A DNA stretch of 6,040 nt from Candidatus Lindowiibacteriota bacterium (GCA_023249255.1 JAHFCY010000199.1:1-6040); one strand, 5' to 3'. Counted from the stretch's first letter, positions 3-6,040 are shown. Notes: a model not told the origin generated them from the sequence alone. Numbers and translations are program-made.

Positions 3-1304
3 GCCGACGACGATCCGTCGATCTCCAGACTGATGTGCCATCTTCTCGAAGCCAACGGATACGAAGTTCGTCTGGCGGAGGACGGCGAGGCGTGTATTGA
101 GGAAACGAAGTCGTTTCATCCGGACCTCGTTCTGCTCGACGTCATGATGCGCAAAATGCACGGATTTGACGTCCTGAAAAAAATCAAAGCCGATCCGAAA
201 ACCAAACGCATCGGCGTCATCATCTGCACGTCCAAGGGATACAAAGCCGATCACGAGCAGGCCCGGACGCTCGGCGCGTTTGAAGTCATCATCAAACCAT
301 TTCAGAAAGATCGGTTTCTCGAAATCATTGCCGGATTTTTCACTCACGGCTCGGATGAGGGACAGGCATTCCGTCTCGAAGCCGAGACCGCCGGTAGCGG
401 AGATATTTATCTGCCCCACATCTCCCCCGACGCCGATTACCTGCGCCTCTGGGGCACGCGCGGATCCACGCCGGTCTCCGGCCAGAAATACATCCGGCAC
501 GGCGGCAACACCTCCTGCATGCAGCTTCACAGCGGTGGAGAAATCATCATCATCGACGCCGGTACCGGCATCCGGGATCTGGGTGTGTGGCTCATGGGCC
601 AGAAATTCCGCCGCCTGCATCTTCTCGTCACGCACACGCACTGGGACCACATCCAGGGATTCCCGTTTTTCACCCCGAGTTACGTGCCCGGATTCAACCT
701 CGTCATTTACGGCTTGTCGGGATTCGGCAAGGATTTGAAATCGATTTTTCAGGGGCAACTCGATCGCGACTACTTCCCCGTTCAGATGGAGGACATGAAA
801 GCCAACCTCGAATTCCGGCACCTCGATGACAAGCCCATCGAGATCGGCGATTTCAAAATCACGTGGGAGTTCACACACCATCCCGGCGCCACCGTCGGAT
901 TCAAAATTCAGCTCAAGGACAAAATCATCGGCTACGTCAGCGACAACGAATTTCTGCGCGGATACATCGGCCCGCCCCACGCGCTCACCATTGACAGCGA
1001 CGAGATGGTGCCGTACCGCAAACTTGTGAAATTCATGACGGGCATGGACGTTCTCGTCGGCGAAGCCCAGTACACGAATGACGAGTATAAAAACAAAATC
1101 GGCTGGGGCCACTCCTCGCTCTCAAACGCCGGCCTTCTCATGTCCCTCGCCGGGATCAAAAAATGGATCCCCACCCATCACGATCCCCTCCACGATGACG
1201 AGTATCTTCAGAACAAACTCAATCTCACAAAGAAAATCCTGCATGACCTGAATCACCCCATGGAGGTCAGGCACGCATTCGACGGGCTGGTGGAGTATTT
1301 GTAA
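3..1304 (+). CDS. Response-regulator receiver domain fused to MBL-fold metal hydrolase (5' partial)
   Basis: A phosphoryl-receiver domain is joined to a metallo-beta-lactamase-fold hydrolase, presumably cytoplasmic. The frame is open to the left edge: the first visible codons read ADDDPSISRLM, the usual acidic pocket just after receiver strand 1, so the true start is upstream and the Met at 33 is internal. Numbering from position 3, the receiver spans residues 1-110, with phospho-acceptor D46 (LLDVMM), T76 and K98-P99 (IIKPF). A linker of about 35 residues follows. The hydrolase (about 147-433) begins RLWGTRGSTP and has GGNTS (167-171), DAGTG (185-189), the metal motif H211-x-H213-x-D215-H216, H292/H293, D314, GWGHSS (H370) and H392/H393. 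This set resembles the RNase Z/PhnP-like MBL branch, which acts on phosphodiesters; the actual substrate is unknown. Regulation of the hydrolase by phosphorylation at D46 is inferred. There is no signal peptide or membrane segment in the visible part. Domain calls are firm, substrate open. Confidence 0.93.
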   Translation, partial: ADDDPSISRLMCHLLEANGYEVRLAEDGEACIEETKSFHPDLVLLDVMMRKMHGFDVLKKIKADPKTKRIGVIICTSKGYKADHEQARTLGAFEVIIKPFQKDRFLEIIAGFFTHGSDEGQAFRLEAETAGSGDIYLPHISPDADYLRLWGTRGSTPVSGQKYIRHGGNTSCMQLHSGGEIIIIDAGTGIRDLGVWLMGQKFRRLHLLVTHTHWDHIQGFPFFTPSYVPGFNLVIYGLSGFGKDLKSIFQGQLDRDYFPVQMEDMKANLEFRHLDDKPIEIGDFKITWEFTHHPGATVGFKIQLKDKIIGYVSDNEFLRGYIGPPHALTIDSDEMVPYRKLVKFMTGMDVLVGEAQYTNDEYKNKIGWGHSSLSNAGLLMSLAGIKKWIPTHHDPLHDDEYLQNKLNLTKKILHDLNHPMEVRHAFDGLVEYL

Positions 1305-2434: not shown

Positions 2435-5400
2435 TCAGTCGAAACAGGCGAGCCACGTGCGGAACGAGAAGAGGCCTTTCTCGTCAGCCCCGCCGGCGCC
2501 TCGATCGTGGCCGGCCGCGTCGGCGGCGTCGTCGCTCCCGGCGGACAGTTCGCGGGCCGGGACGAAAATATAGCGGTTGGATTTTCCCTCGCGCTGGCGC
2601 CATGCCGTTATTTTTTCCCGGAACGATTCAGTGTGGCGCAGCCGGCGGTCCTTGATCAACAACGGATAATCCTCGCCGACCAGAAATTTGCACTGGTCCA
2701 TGAATTTCAATTCAGTCTCGGCCGACCGGAGGATATCGTCGGCGCGCGCGTAATCTCCCGCCGGAACGATGAGCGCGCTTTCGCCTGTGGGGCTGTGCAG
2801 AATTTTTTGGATTTCGTCGACCGGCGCGGCCGTCAATGGATGATCAGCCGGCAGAATCATCAGCCGCGCCGGAATTTTGGGTTCGGCGGTCAGGGCTGTC
2901 GCGAACATTCGAAGTTTCCGGGCGAACTTGACTTTTTCCCTCAACGGAAAATTCGCCCGGATGATCGCCTCGCCGATCATGTCGGCCGTGGCCGAACCGA
3001 AAATTGTCCGAACATGATGAAAAAGGTCGAACCCGCGCGGAGAAAGACCGTAGCGAAGTTCGGCCGCCAGACTCAACGCGTTGAAGAGCCGGACATGGGA
3101 TTGCGTCTGCCAGGCCATGTCGTTCAAGAGATCAGCCCCGCCGGATCGGCAGAATGCCTCGACCGCTTTTTCGAATGAAGGCCGGCCGGTCGCGGCCGAA
3201 ATTCCGTCGAGGCGTCGAAATGCGGCCGTCATTTTTCGCCGGATCGGTTCAAGGTCCTCCGGGCCGATGTGAATTTTCCCGCGCCTCCAGTTTTCCACTT
3301 TGGAAAAATCGCAAAACGCCCCGAAAATAAGCCCGGCGTGGATGAGCAAAAATGACCGGACGTCCCGCGGCTGAAGAGGCGTTGCGTCGAACAATCGCAG
3401 CGTATCGGCGACTTCCTCCCCGGACAGCATCTCGCAAACGTCCGGTCGCCGCCGGATCCGTTCCGCCAGAGAGACAGTCTGGGACTGGAGCATCCGACGA
3501 ACAGCGCTGTTTGAGGAAATATCCTCCGGTGAGAGGATGCAGTCCGCGAAGATCGGATCGTCTGTGAGACTTCCGCAGAGCAGAATTCCGGTAATGATCC
3601 GATCCCATTCCTCCGGCGAAATCGGGGTTCCACCGCCCGCCTCCATTCGCCGGCCCAGATCGACGGCGATTCGGATCGAAGACGAGAGATTCAGCTTGAC
3701 AAAATTGAATGCGGGTTTCAGATGGTCAAGCAGTGTGGTCCGCCGTTCGAGCGTTTCCAGACCCTCCGCTCTCAAAAAATCCTTCAGGTTCCGCTCCGTC
3801 ACCGCGGCGTCGGCGTGGAAATGGATCTGCCCCAGAGACCGCACCAGCTCCTGAAGATTGTAATAGACCGCGCGATCGCTCAAATAATTGGGGTTTTCGT
3901 GCATTGCGCCGATGACTTCCCGCAGGGCATTTCGGAATGGAGTCGCGCCCGGCACGCTTTCGTAATAAAACAGGAGCACGTCGCGGTTCGTGAATCCCGA
4001 CAACAGGATGCGCCGGAATCGCTCGTTGCTCCGGTCATCAAACGTCGCGTGATGGTTCGCCGCCTCCCACTTCAGATATCGTTCGGCTTCCGCCTGCACG
4101 CGTTCCGACCCGCGAAGTTCTTCGACGTCCGACGCCTTTTCAAGTTTCCGGATTCGCTCTTCAGCCTGTGCCGTCGGCGCGTAGAGGGACATGAACTGCT
4201 CGAACGGGATGAGACAGCAGGGATCCTGGATGCGATTCGATTCCCGGAAATCCCGGATGATGACGTGGAACGGTTTTTGAAAATCGGCCTCATACGGATA
4301 CGACTGCGTCACAAACTGCAGGCGCCGCTCTCCGGCGATGACCGCGACGCGGTCGCGCTTGCCGATTTCGAATTTTGGATGTCCCGTCAGCCGTTCGTAG
4401 GTCTTGATGACACGGGGCAACATTCCCATGAGAATGATCCAGCGTCCTTCGGCCATCAACCGCATGATGATTTCCACCACGCGCTGGACAGGCTGGGCGC
4501 TGGCGTTGATGAACGCAAATGACTGGATGCGTTCGTTCCGAAACAGCGGTGCAATGAGGTCGGTCCGGTTGATCACGTTGATCTTGTCGCGAACCGGCAA
4601 TCCCGATTTCATGAGATTGTCGAAAATCCGGCTGACGAGGTCCGACCCATGGCGCTCTCGAAGATCAGCCATGGGATTCGGGTGCTGGGGATTGAGGCCG
4701 CTGTGGAGCGCGGCGGCCATCTGCAGCGCCGAGTAGCACTGCGGGTAGAACGACGACATCTCGTCCAGCCGGCGCAAAAGGCCGTACTGGTGCGGATCGG
4801 AAAAAAAACTCTGGGCCGCATGCCAGATTTCCCGGTCGATCTGTTTTCGTTCGAGCTGGGCGTCCAGCCATCGCGGCGCAATTTCCTCCAGCCGCAAAAA
4901 TCCACGGATCCAGTGGTCCGGCCTTGTCCGGTCGCCGAACACCGCGATGTTGTCCGCGAGGTGCAGAATCTGCTGAATGCGTCCCGTCGGACCGGTTGAT
5001 TGCCGATGATGGGCCTTGAGTAGGCGATGGATCGTGCCGGTGTCAAGGCGCGTGTCAAGGCCCGCGTCCGCGAGCGCGCGGGGCAGAAGATCAGCCGAAA
5101 TTTCGGCGTGCCGTTCCAGCACGGCCGTCAGAATCTGCCGGCTGAGCCGCCCGCTCGGTTCCATGAGGACCCGGCGAAACGCCGGATCCAGCACGTTGAG
5201 GTCGTGAAGAGCGGCGCTCACGAGAAGCAGGTCGTGTTCCGACCCCGGTAGATTCGCCCGCCGCCCGAGTTCGTCCGCGAACCGGACGGTCAGAATCAAG
5301 TGCACGTGATGCGACAGGTCCACCGGCTCGTATAACGAGAAAATGGTTCGGACCGCCGAGGTGTCGGAACCGATGGTGTCCGCGAACAAAAACGATTCGG

Positions 5401-6040
5401 CCATCGCCAGTCCCGTTGGCCACCGCCGCTTGAGATGTTTTCGGCCAAGCGCGACAACGAGCCGGTTGATATGTTCGTACGGATCGAGGTCCGCCAGAAA
5501 ATCGGGATTCGGCAGAAGATAGGTGATCGCCTCGGACATCGCGTCCTGGAGCGGTCCCGCGTCCGCCTCCACCGCCATCACGAATTGAAGAATTTCCTTG
5601 CCCTGCAAATCGTTCGACAGGATCAGGCTTTCCTTGACGCTCTCATTGTGCAGATAGTCGGCGGCCGGCGTGGTTTTCCGGAATTCGGCCGCGTTGGCCA
5701 TGACATGAGGGCTTGGAGAAAATCCGGAACCCGCCTCGTTGATCTCGCGCATGATATCGGGCGCAAATTTGATGCGTCGGGCCATCCCGACTCGTCCGTC
5801 CGATGTCGGCATCCGCACAACGACGTCGCCGCCGCTCATCACCGTGATCTCCAGTCCGCGCAGATCCCCCGGATAGGCCCGGATCTGTTTGGCGAGCCTC
5901 CGGGAATAATGGAGGTCGATGTGGTTGACCACGATCCCGGGATTGTCGCCAAACTCGATGCGGAGCGTTTTTTGTTCGGGGTCGTAGGAGACCCGGCCGC
6001 CCCGGTGGTAGTCTGTCAGCAGATAGGAATGCGGACCGTC
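2435..6040 (-). CDS. Large protein with tandemly duplicated HD-GYP-like modules (5' partial)
   Basis: The frame is open from the right edge to the TGA at 2435, giving 1201 visible residues (numbered from 6040); the start lies outside the window. No whole-length family is recognised. After an N-terminal region (1-128), two homologous units follow, about 129-576 and 655-1131. The first holds a divergent HD-GYP core: a His cluster H244/H245/H247, H279-D280 in ALHDLNVLD, H311 in ERHAEISADLL, H344-H345, and D363 in LHLADN. In HD-GYP proteins these positions bind metals and hydrolyse cyclic di-GMP or related nucleotides; the GYP loop is missing here, so the substrate is uncertain. The second unit has lost all of these residues. 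The C-terminal end (about 1167-1189) is Gly/Ala/Asp-rich and probably disordered. No transmembrane segments or signal peptide are visible, so a soluble protein is likely. The glycosyltransferase gene follows 51 bases downstream. The frame and duplication are firm; the function is inferred. Confidence 0.92.
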   Translation of the reverse strand, partial: DGPHSYLLTDYHRGGRVSYDPEQKTLRIEFGDNPGIVVNHIDLHYSRRLAKQIRAYPGDLRGLEITVMSGGDVVVRMPTSDGRVGMARRIKFAPDIMREINEAGSGFSPSPHVMANAAEFRKTTPAADYLHNESVKESLILSNDLQGKEILQFVMAVEADAGPLQDAMSEAITYLLPNPDFLADLDPYEHINRLVVALGRKHLKRRWPTGLAMAESFLFADTIGSDTSAVRTIFSLYEPVDLSHHVHLILTVRFADELGRRANLPGSEHDLLLVSAALHDLNVLDPAFRRVLMEPSGRLSRQILTAVLERHAEISADLLPRALADAGLDTRLDTGTIHRLLKAHHRQSTGPTGRIQQILHLADNIAVFGDRTRPDHWIRGFLRLEEIAPRWLDAQLERKQIDREIWHAAQSFFSDPHQYGLLRRLDEMSSFYPQCYSALQMAAALHSGLNPQHPNPMADLRERHGSDLVSRIFDNLMKSGLPVRDKINVINRTDLIAPLFRNERIQSFAFINASAQPVQRVVEIIMRLMAEGRWIILMGMLPRVIKTYERLTGHPKFEIGKRDRVAVIAGERRLQFVTQSYPYEADFQKPFHVIIRDFRESNRIQDPCCLIPFEQFMSLYAPTAQAEERIRKLEKASDVEELRGSERVQAEAERYLKWEAANHHATFDDRSNERFRRILLSGFTNRDVLLFYYESVPGATPFRNALREVIGAMHENPNYLSDRAVYYNLQELVRSLGQIHFHADAAVTERNLKDFLRAEGLETLERRTTLLDHLKPAFNFVKLNLSSSIRIAVDLGRRMEAGGGTPISPEEWDRIITGILLCGSLTDDPIFADCILSPEDISSNSAVRRMLQSQTVSLAERIRRRPDVCEMLSGEEVADTLRLFDATPLQPRDVRSFLLIHAGLIFGAFCDFSKVENWRRGKIHIGPEDLEPIRRKMTAAFRRLDGISAATGRPSFEKAVEAFCRSGGADLLNDMAWQTQSHVRLFNALSLAAELRYGLSPRGFDLFHHVRTIFGSATADMIGEAIIRANFPLREKVKFARKLRMFATALTAEPKIPARLMILPADHPLTAAPVDEIQKILHSPTGESALIVPAGDYARADDILRSAETELKFMDQCKFLVGEDYPLLIKDRRLRHTESFREKITAWRQREGKSNRYIFVPARELSAGSDDAADAAGHDRGAGGADEKGLFSFRTWLACFD
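2648..4078 (-). repeat. Protein-level repeat, copy 2 (HD residues lost)
   Basis: Visible residues about 655-1131 form the second copy, aligned to the first by the landmarks listed there. Where copy 1 has the HD pair this copy has C822-G823 (ILLCGSLTDDPIF against ALHDLNVLDPAF). The HxE histidine becomes Gln or Thr in LQSQTVSLAERI. The HH pair becomes roughly Thr-Pro in LFDATPLQ. The last Asp becomes Gly or Leu in IHAGLIFGAF. The scaffold is retained, so this copy is probably a folded but metal-free domain with a structural or regulatory role. Confidence 0.82.
4313..5656 (-). repeat. Protein-level repeat, copy 1 (HD residues intact)
   Basis: Visible residues about 129-576 of the large protein form the first copy. 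Landmarks shared with copy 2, in order: NPDFLADLDPY (from 178) against NPNYLSDRAVY; LVVALGRKH against LVRSLGQIH; DELGRR against VDLGRR; FGDRTRPDHWIRG (from 368) against FCDFSKVENWRRG; ALQMAAALHSGLNP (from 438) against ALSLAAELRYGLSP; and GLPVRDKI against NFPLREKV. Order is kept and the spacing between copies drifts only from about 538 to 556 residues. Similarity probably continues weakly past 500, through a stretch starting PVQRVVEI. Confidence 0.85.
4928..5320 (-). other. Divergent HD-GYP-like catalytic core inside the large protein
   Basis: This stretch covers visible residues about 241-371. Its motif order matches the HD-GYP fold: a His cluster before a helix ending in DELG, then H279-D280, then a segment ending EPSGRLS (usual form: NKPGxLT), then H311 in HAEISADLL (usual form: HPEIGxxIL), then H344-H345, then D363 in ILHLADNIAVF (usual form: IlaVADxFDAl). 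The step from the HD pair to the next His is 32 residues, slightly longer than the usual 29. The segment after HH, which normally reads E-x-x-D-G-x-G-Y-P, is cut to RQSTGPTGR. Confidence 0.72.

Follow-up and report, generated by a model that had tools for sequence, protein, structure and literature searches.

The window analysed here, 6,040 nucleotides long, is an entire contig (G000:C249). On its minus strand a reading frame is open from 6040 to 2438, with no internal stop and a stop codon at 2435-2437. The gene (2435-6040) runs off the contig at 6040 with its 5′ end missing, and what remains encodes the C-terminal 1,201 residues, or 70%, of a protein of about 1,700 residues that joins a kinase-like domain, an HD unit and a putative pseudo-HD unit; about 515 N-terminal residues lie outside the window. 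The full-length protein is described here from its orthologues in two sister genera (L006:7811-12961 and L007:7906-13065), which are about 1,715 residues long and start with the PI3/PI4-kinase-like domain. In two other genomes from the same family the gene is uninterrupted (G001 C14, 1,716 codons; G002 C77, 1,719 codons). In the window's own assembly the N-terminal part is found on a second contig, C360 (L008), whose positions 1-138 overlap window positions 5903-6040 with 124 of the 138 bases identical. Such an overlap fits strain variation or mixing within the metagenome bin, and we infer that C249 and C360 join in the real genome.

Directly downstream of this gene, and on the same strand, lies a family 2 glycosyltransferase gene (1352-2383), 51 bases away in the window and 26 in L006. 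No such gene follows the L005 orthologue, which is adjoined by a frame for a TPR protein on the opposite strand. Another frame of the window (3-1304, plus strand), open at the contig start, joins a response-regulator receiver domain (PF00072) to a metallo-beta-lactamase fold (PF12706). In L006 a gene divergent from the kinase-HD gene (6328-7404, minus strand) combines a class III nucleotide cyclase domain with an RDD domain C-terminal to it.

The N-terminal domain was recognised with the PI3/PI4 kinase profile PF00454, whose cut-off is 27.1 bits. L007 exceeds it (28.1 bits, E 2.3e-6), L006 gives 25.7 bits (E 1.3e-5) for the protein and 27.1 bits in a six-frame genome search, and G000 gives 27.3 bits, with neighbours. 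When the three genomes were searched in six frames, no other gene was matched, and this one attained the cut-off in every genome. The match is limited to about 48 of the 241 profile positions (approximately 129-176). It is accompanied by the conserved motifs VLKPTDM, YDRKPDQ and HIDFG; the Lys, DRK and ID[FH]G motifs of bacterial PI3/PI4-kinase-like proteins are shared by this domain. The ATP Lys (in VLKPTDM), the catalytic Asp (in YDRKPDQ) and the Asp of DFG (in HIDFG) are invariant; the Asn of DRHxxN is replaced by Gln, and the kinase may hence be inactive. A profile-profile comparison with other bacterial PF00454 proteins aligned the same motifs, with a score (28.4) barely above the best of 60 shuffles (25.9). 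We therefore call the domain kinase-like and not a proven kinase. It is separated from the first of the two units described below by a region, delimited by alignment with the orthologues, that occupies residues 1-128 of the window's frame (5657-6040, minus strand).

The rest of the protein is built from two tandem units of about 490 residues. The original prediction had seen, at 2648-5656 (residues 129-1131 of the 1,201-residue frame), an ancient and diverged duplication in which short landmark motifs recur in the same order, and our results bear this out. The motifs are indeed repeated, FGDRTRPDHWIRG at residue 368 being answered by FCDFSKVENWRRG at 909 (offset 541) and ALQMAAALHSGLNP at 438 by ALSLAAELRYGLSP at 988 (offset 550). 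BLASTP of the protein against itself aligned residues 140-561 with 678-1123 (65.1 bits, E 3e-15, 22% identity), and phmmer gave an E-value of 9e-16. The check named beforehand, an HMM-HMM comparison of the halves of the three orthologues, yielded a probability of 98.6, an E-value of 1.1e-15 and a score of 122.1 over 466 columns, while 40 column-shuffled controls scored 22.8 at most. Since the score lies far above the shuffles and agrees with BLASTP and phmmer, the duplication is real and spans nearly the whole unit: the matching ranges, residues ~136-620 and ~674-1167, reach well past the HD core on both sides. One could still propose that the halves are unrelated helical regions sharing motifs by chance, given that they are only about 20% identical and mostly helical. 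The E-values and the gap to the shuffled scores refute this reading, as do 46 alignment columns that are identical across all six units (two units in three orthologues), and we give it virtually no weight. On sequence evidence, both units are derived from one ancestral HD-containing unit. A joint structure model of 1,165 residues, built from two alignment rows, had a pLDDT of 39 and was set aside.

Unit 1 (residues 129-625; 4166-5656, minus strand), as delimited by the half-to-half comparison and a structure model, consists of an N-terminal helical part, an HD domain, post-HD helices and a C-terminal alpha/beta part. A linker placed by the alignments (residues 626-666; 4043-4165, minus strand) connects it to unit 2. 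The HD core of unit 1 (residues 244-370; 4931-5311, minus strand) is the only part of the protein matched by PF01966, whose cut-off is 22 bits. The score is 31 bits in L006 and 22.5-26.9 bits in L005 and L007, with E-values of 3.3e-7 and 1.5e-4 in the two orthologues over the cut-off; the window's own unit 1 falls slightly under it, at 20.1 bits. The ligand set H..HD..H..HH..D is complete, and the three orthologues agree at every one of its residues: H247, H279, D280, H311, H344, H345 and D363. The same pattern is found in the HD-GYP phosphodiesterases of c-di-GMP, PmGH (4mcw) and DvhD (9rbz), and the spacing of 32 residues between the first His and the HD is that of PmGH. In phmmer alignments to 4mcw, with E-values of only 0.9-1.2, H247, H279-D280 and H311 pair with H189, H221-D222 and H250 of PmGH. 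Here the partner of H247, His 195 of the 4mcw chain, was identified as H189 of the published numbering by counting back from the aligned HD, and the metal ligands are named as in PMC4159591.

An alignment of four rows, in which two proteins were each represented by both units, was used for an AlphaFold model of unit 1. The model has a mean pLDDT of 60 and a pTM of 0.57; within the HD region pLDDT rises to as much as 85. The structures that it matches best are DvhD (Z 12.7), PmGH (10.9) and the HD domain of the c-di-AMP phosphodiesterase PgpH (4s1b/4s1c; 10.9), followed by eukaryotic phosphodiesterases near 9; the model is helical and of moderate confidence, and a Z-score near 13 does not settle the matter alone. 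A Foldseek search with this model returned no match below an E-value of 0.001, and its seven top rows were all HD-GYP proteins. Sequence searches of the PDB gave no credible significant match. A match of the L005 HD region to 2,5-diketo-D-gluconate reductase (E 0.0013) was judged to be due to chance, as it departs from the HD pattern and the orthologous region of L006 has no such match. We hence base the assignment of unit 1 on its profile match, its ligands and its predicted fold jointly, which agree with one another, and on no single one of them.

The original prediction had described both units as HD-GYP-like. For unit 1 this holds in part, as it has the ligand pattern of HD-GYP proteins and a model that matches their structures best. 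However, the GYP motif is absent, the HH being followed by RQSTGPTG, RPSGR or RSTGGAPA in the three orthologues. The distance from HH to the last Asp is 14-18 residues, compared with 28 in PmGH, and the stretch that bears GYP is thus missing from unit 1. The lysine three residues after HD (HDxGK; K225 in PmGH) is absent as well, all three orthologues reading HDLNV, and so is the Glu ligand for a third metal. Unit 1 therefore resembles HD-GYP domains in its metal set and its predicted fold, and is not an HD-GYP domain proper. The protein as a whole also differs from HD-GYP proteins in that its second copy is degenerate and no known sensor domain is recognised. PgpH, a 7TM protein anchored in the membrane, has a single HD domain, which lacks GYP as unit 1 does; in contrast to PgpH, the unit is here duplicated and joined to a kinase-like domain, and a Pfam search of the protein reported no match to the 7TMR-HD profile.

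For unit 2 (residues 667-1170; 2531-4042, minus strand), which the half-to-half comparison identifies as a diverged copy of unit 1, the HD-GYP-like description does not stand. In the region aligned with the HD core (residues 782-911; 3308-3697, minus strand) all seven ligands of unit 1 are replaced in each of the three orthologues, the corresponding positions being N, C/S/A, G, Q/A/M, T/S/G, P and L. HD-family profiles did not match unit 2 of any orthologue at E-values up to 10, and it belongs to the HD superfamily only because it is homologous to unit 1. Unit 2 is nevertheless 52% identical between genera, with differences of 0.38, 0.29 and 0.59 at the three codon positions, which indicates that it is constrained at the protein level. 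We hence regard it as a putative pseudo-HD twin, conserved with its active site apparently dismantled, as in a pseudo-enzyme. Both the metal site of unit 1 and its loss in unit 2 are read from sequence.

The distribution of the protein was surveyed in 386 genomes from 327 genera. A profile of the two units matched 3 of the 386, all from one family and from three genera, and always as two copies; no similar protein was found in this set outside these three related genomes. A longer profile (A1) matched other genomes only over or around the HD core, with the exception of one marginal match to a stretch containing stops, and a single marginal match outside the family (E 0.003) was all that the kinase-like part added. 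PF00454 itself was recorded in 18 of the 386 genomes; apart from the gene studied here it lies mostly in frames of 240-350 aa, and none of these other matches is fused to this HD unit. One of them, in L042 (G229:C19:180589-180936), lies in a frame of 4,836 codons with the motifs NDRHLGN and NIDLD; this, too, is a very large protein, and it bears a PI3K-like site. Viral contigs contained no relative. A role in defence was unsupported, PADLOC, PHROGs and NCBIfam giving only weak HD-type or chance matches, and weak matches to Cas3_HD, Csm1 and Cas10 reflect the shared HD fold and do not suggest a role in CRISPR systems. In all three genomes GGDEF domains are present, with 7-15 matches per genome, which makes cyclic dinucleotides plausible substrates that may be available.

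Taken together, the best reading of this protein, to which we give a probability of about 55%, is a metal phosphohydrolase or phosphodiesterase that is coupled to a kinase and carries a dead copy with a regulatory role. A single chain would carry a PI3/PI4-kinase-like domain followed by the two tandem units. Unit 1 would most likely be a working HD phosphohydrolase or phosphodiesterase, probably with a dinuclear metal centre, acting on a substrate that is plausibly a cyclic dinucleotide or another nucleotide. In this reading unit 2 would be catalytically dead and retained for a structural or allosteric role; it might, for instance, pack against unit 1, or bind a ligand that it does not hydrolyse. 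The kinase-like domain would either transfer phosphate to a lipid, a small molecule or a protein, or sense a nucleotide, and its fusion to the units suggests that it is coupled in cis to the HD site.

The same arrangement could instead describe a bifunctional kinase/phosphatase, in which the kinase-like domain adds a phosphate that unit 1 removes, setting the level of one phosphorylated molecule, with unit 2 as the switch. The presence of kinase-like and phosphohydrolase-type domains in one chain in three genera would agree with it, and HD enzymes comprise phosphatases as well as phosphodiesterases (PMC8177086). We consider it unlikely, in that nothing points to a shared substrate, the nearest structural matches of unit 1 are cyclic-dinucleotide phosphodiesterases and not phosphatases, and the kinase, with Gln in place of Asn, may be inactive. 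Improbable too, in our estimate, is a large sensor or scaffold in which unit 1 binds a metal and a ligand, the kinase-like domain binds a nucleotide, and neither is a second-messenger enzyme. The HD-GYP-like protein Bd1817, in which the motif is degraded, shows no activity on c-di-GMP (PMC8177086), and unit 1 without the GYP loop and the HDxGK lysine, together with a kinase-like domain without its Asn, could be seen in the same light. However, unit 1 has all seven of its metal ligands invariant, as the kinase-like domain has its Lys, its Asp and the Asp of DFG, and changing the GYP residues of PmGH to alanine has little effect on its activity (PMC4159591).

What is new in the kinase-coupled HD enzyme that we favour is the combination and its architecture, as each domain comes from a known superfamily. 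In a literature search that was limited and had most subscription journals outside it, we found no account of this duplication or of its fusion to a kinase, no active/pseudo-enzyme pair described for HD phosphohydrolases, and no bacterial fusion of a PI3/PI4-kinase-like domain with an HD unit. Pairs of active enzyme and pseudo-enzyme are familiar among kinases and GGDEF/EAL proteins. In RelA/SpoT (RSH) proteins, too, one chain contains an HD hydrolase and another catalytic domain; in contrast to them, no synthetase, TGS or ACT domain was found here, the HD unit is duplicated with an apparently dead copy, and its partner is kinase-like. Only tentatively would we go further and see here a lineage-specific and previously undescribed prokaryotic kinase-phosphodiesterase switch containing an active/pseudo-enzyme pair, with a dead HD twin coupling a PI3/PI4-kinase-like domain to an HD phosphodiesterase within one chain. 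If both sites work, the protein would link kinase chemistry to phosphodiester hydrolysis in a single chain, and would offer a natural test of the control that a dead copy exerts over a live HD site.

Two further observations were made. The protein ends in a strongly conserved tail, [DE]KGLFxFRTWxxxFD (residues 1187-1201; 2438-2482, minus strand), whose pattern is identical in the three orthologues and which is preceded by a variable stretch of low complexity. Furthermore, L006 contains a single frame (14642-16438, minus strand) that encodes a lipoyl ligase/octanoyltransferase-type domain (PF21948) and a radical-SAM domain with part of LIAS_N, which suggests a fused enzyme of the lipoate pathway.
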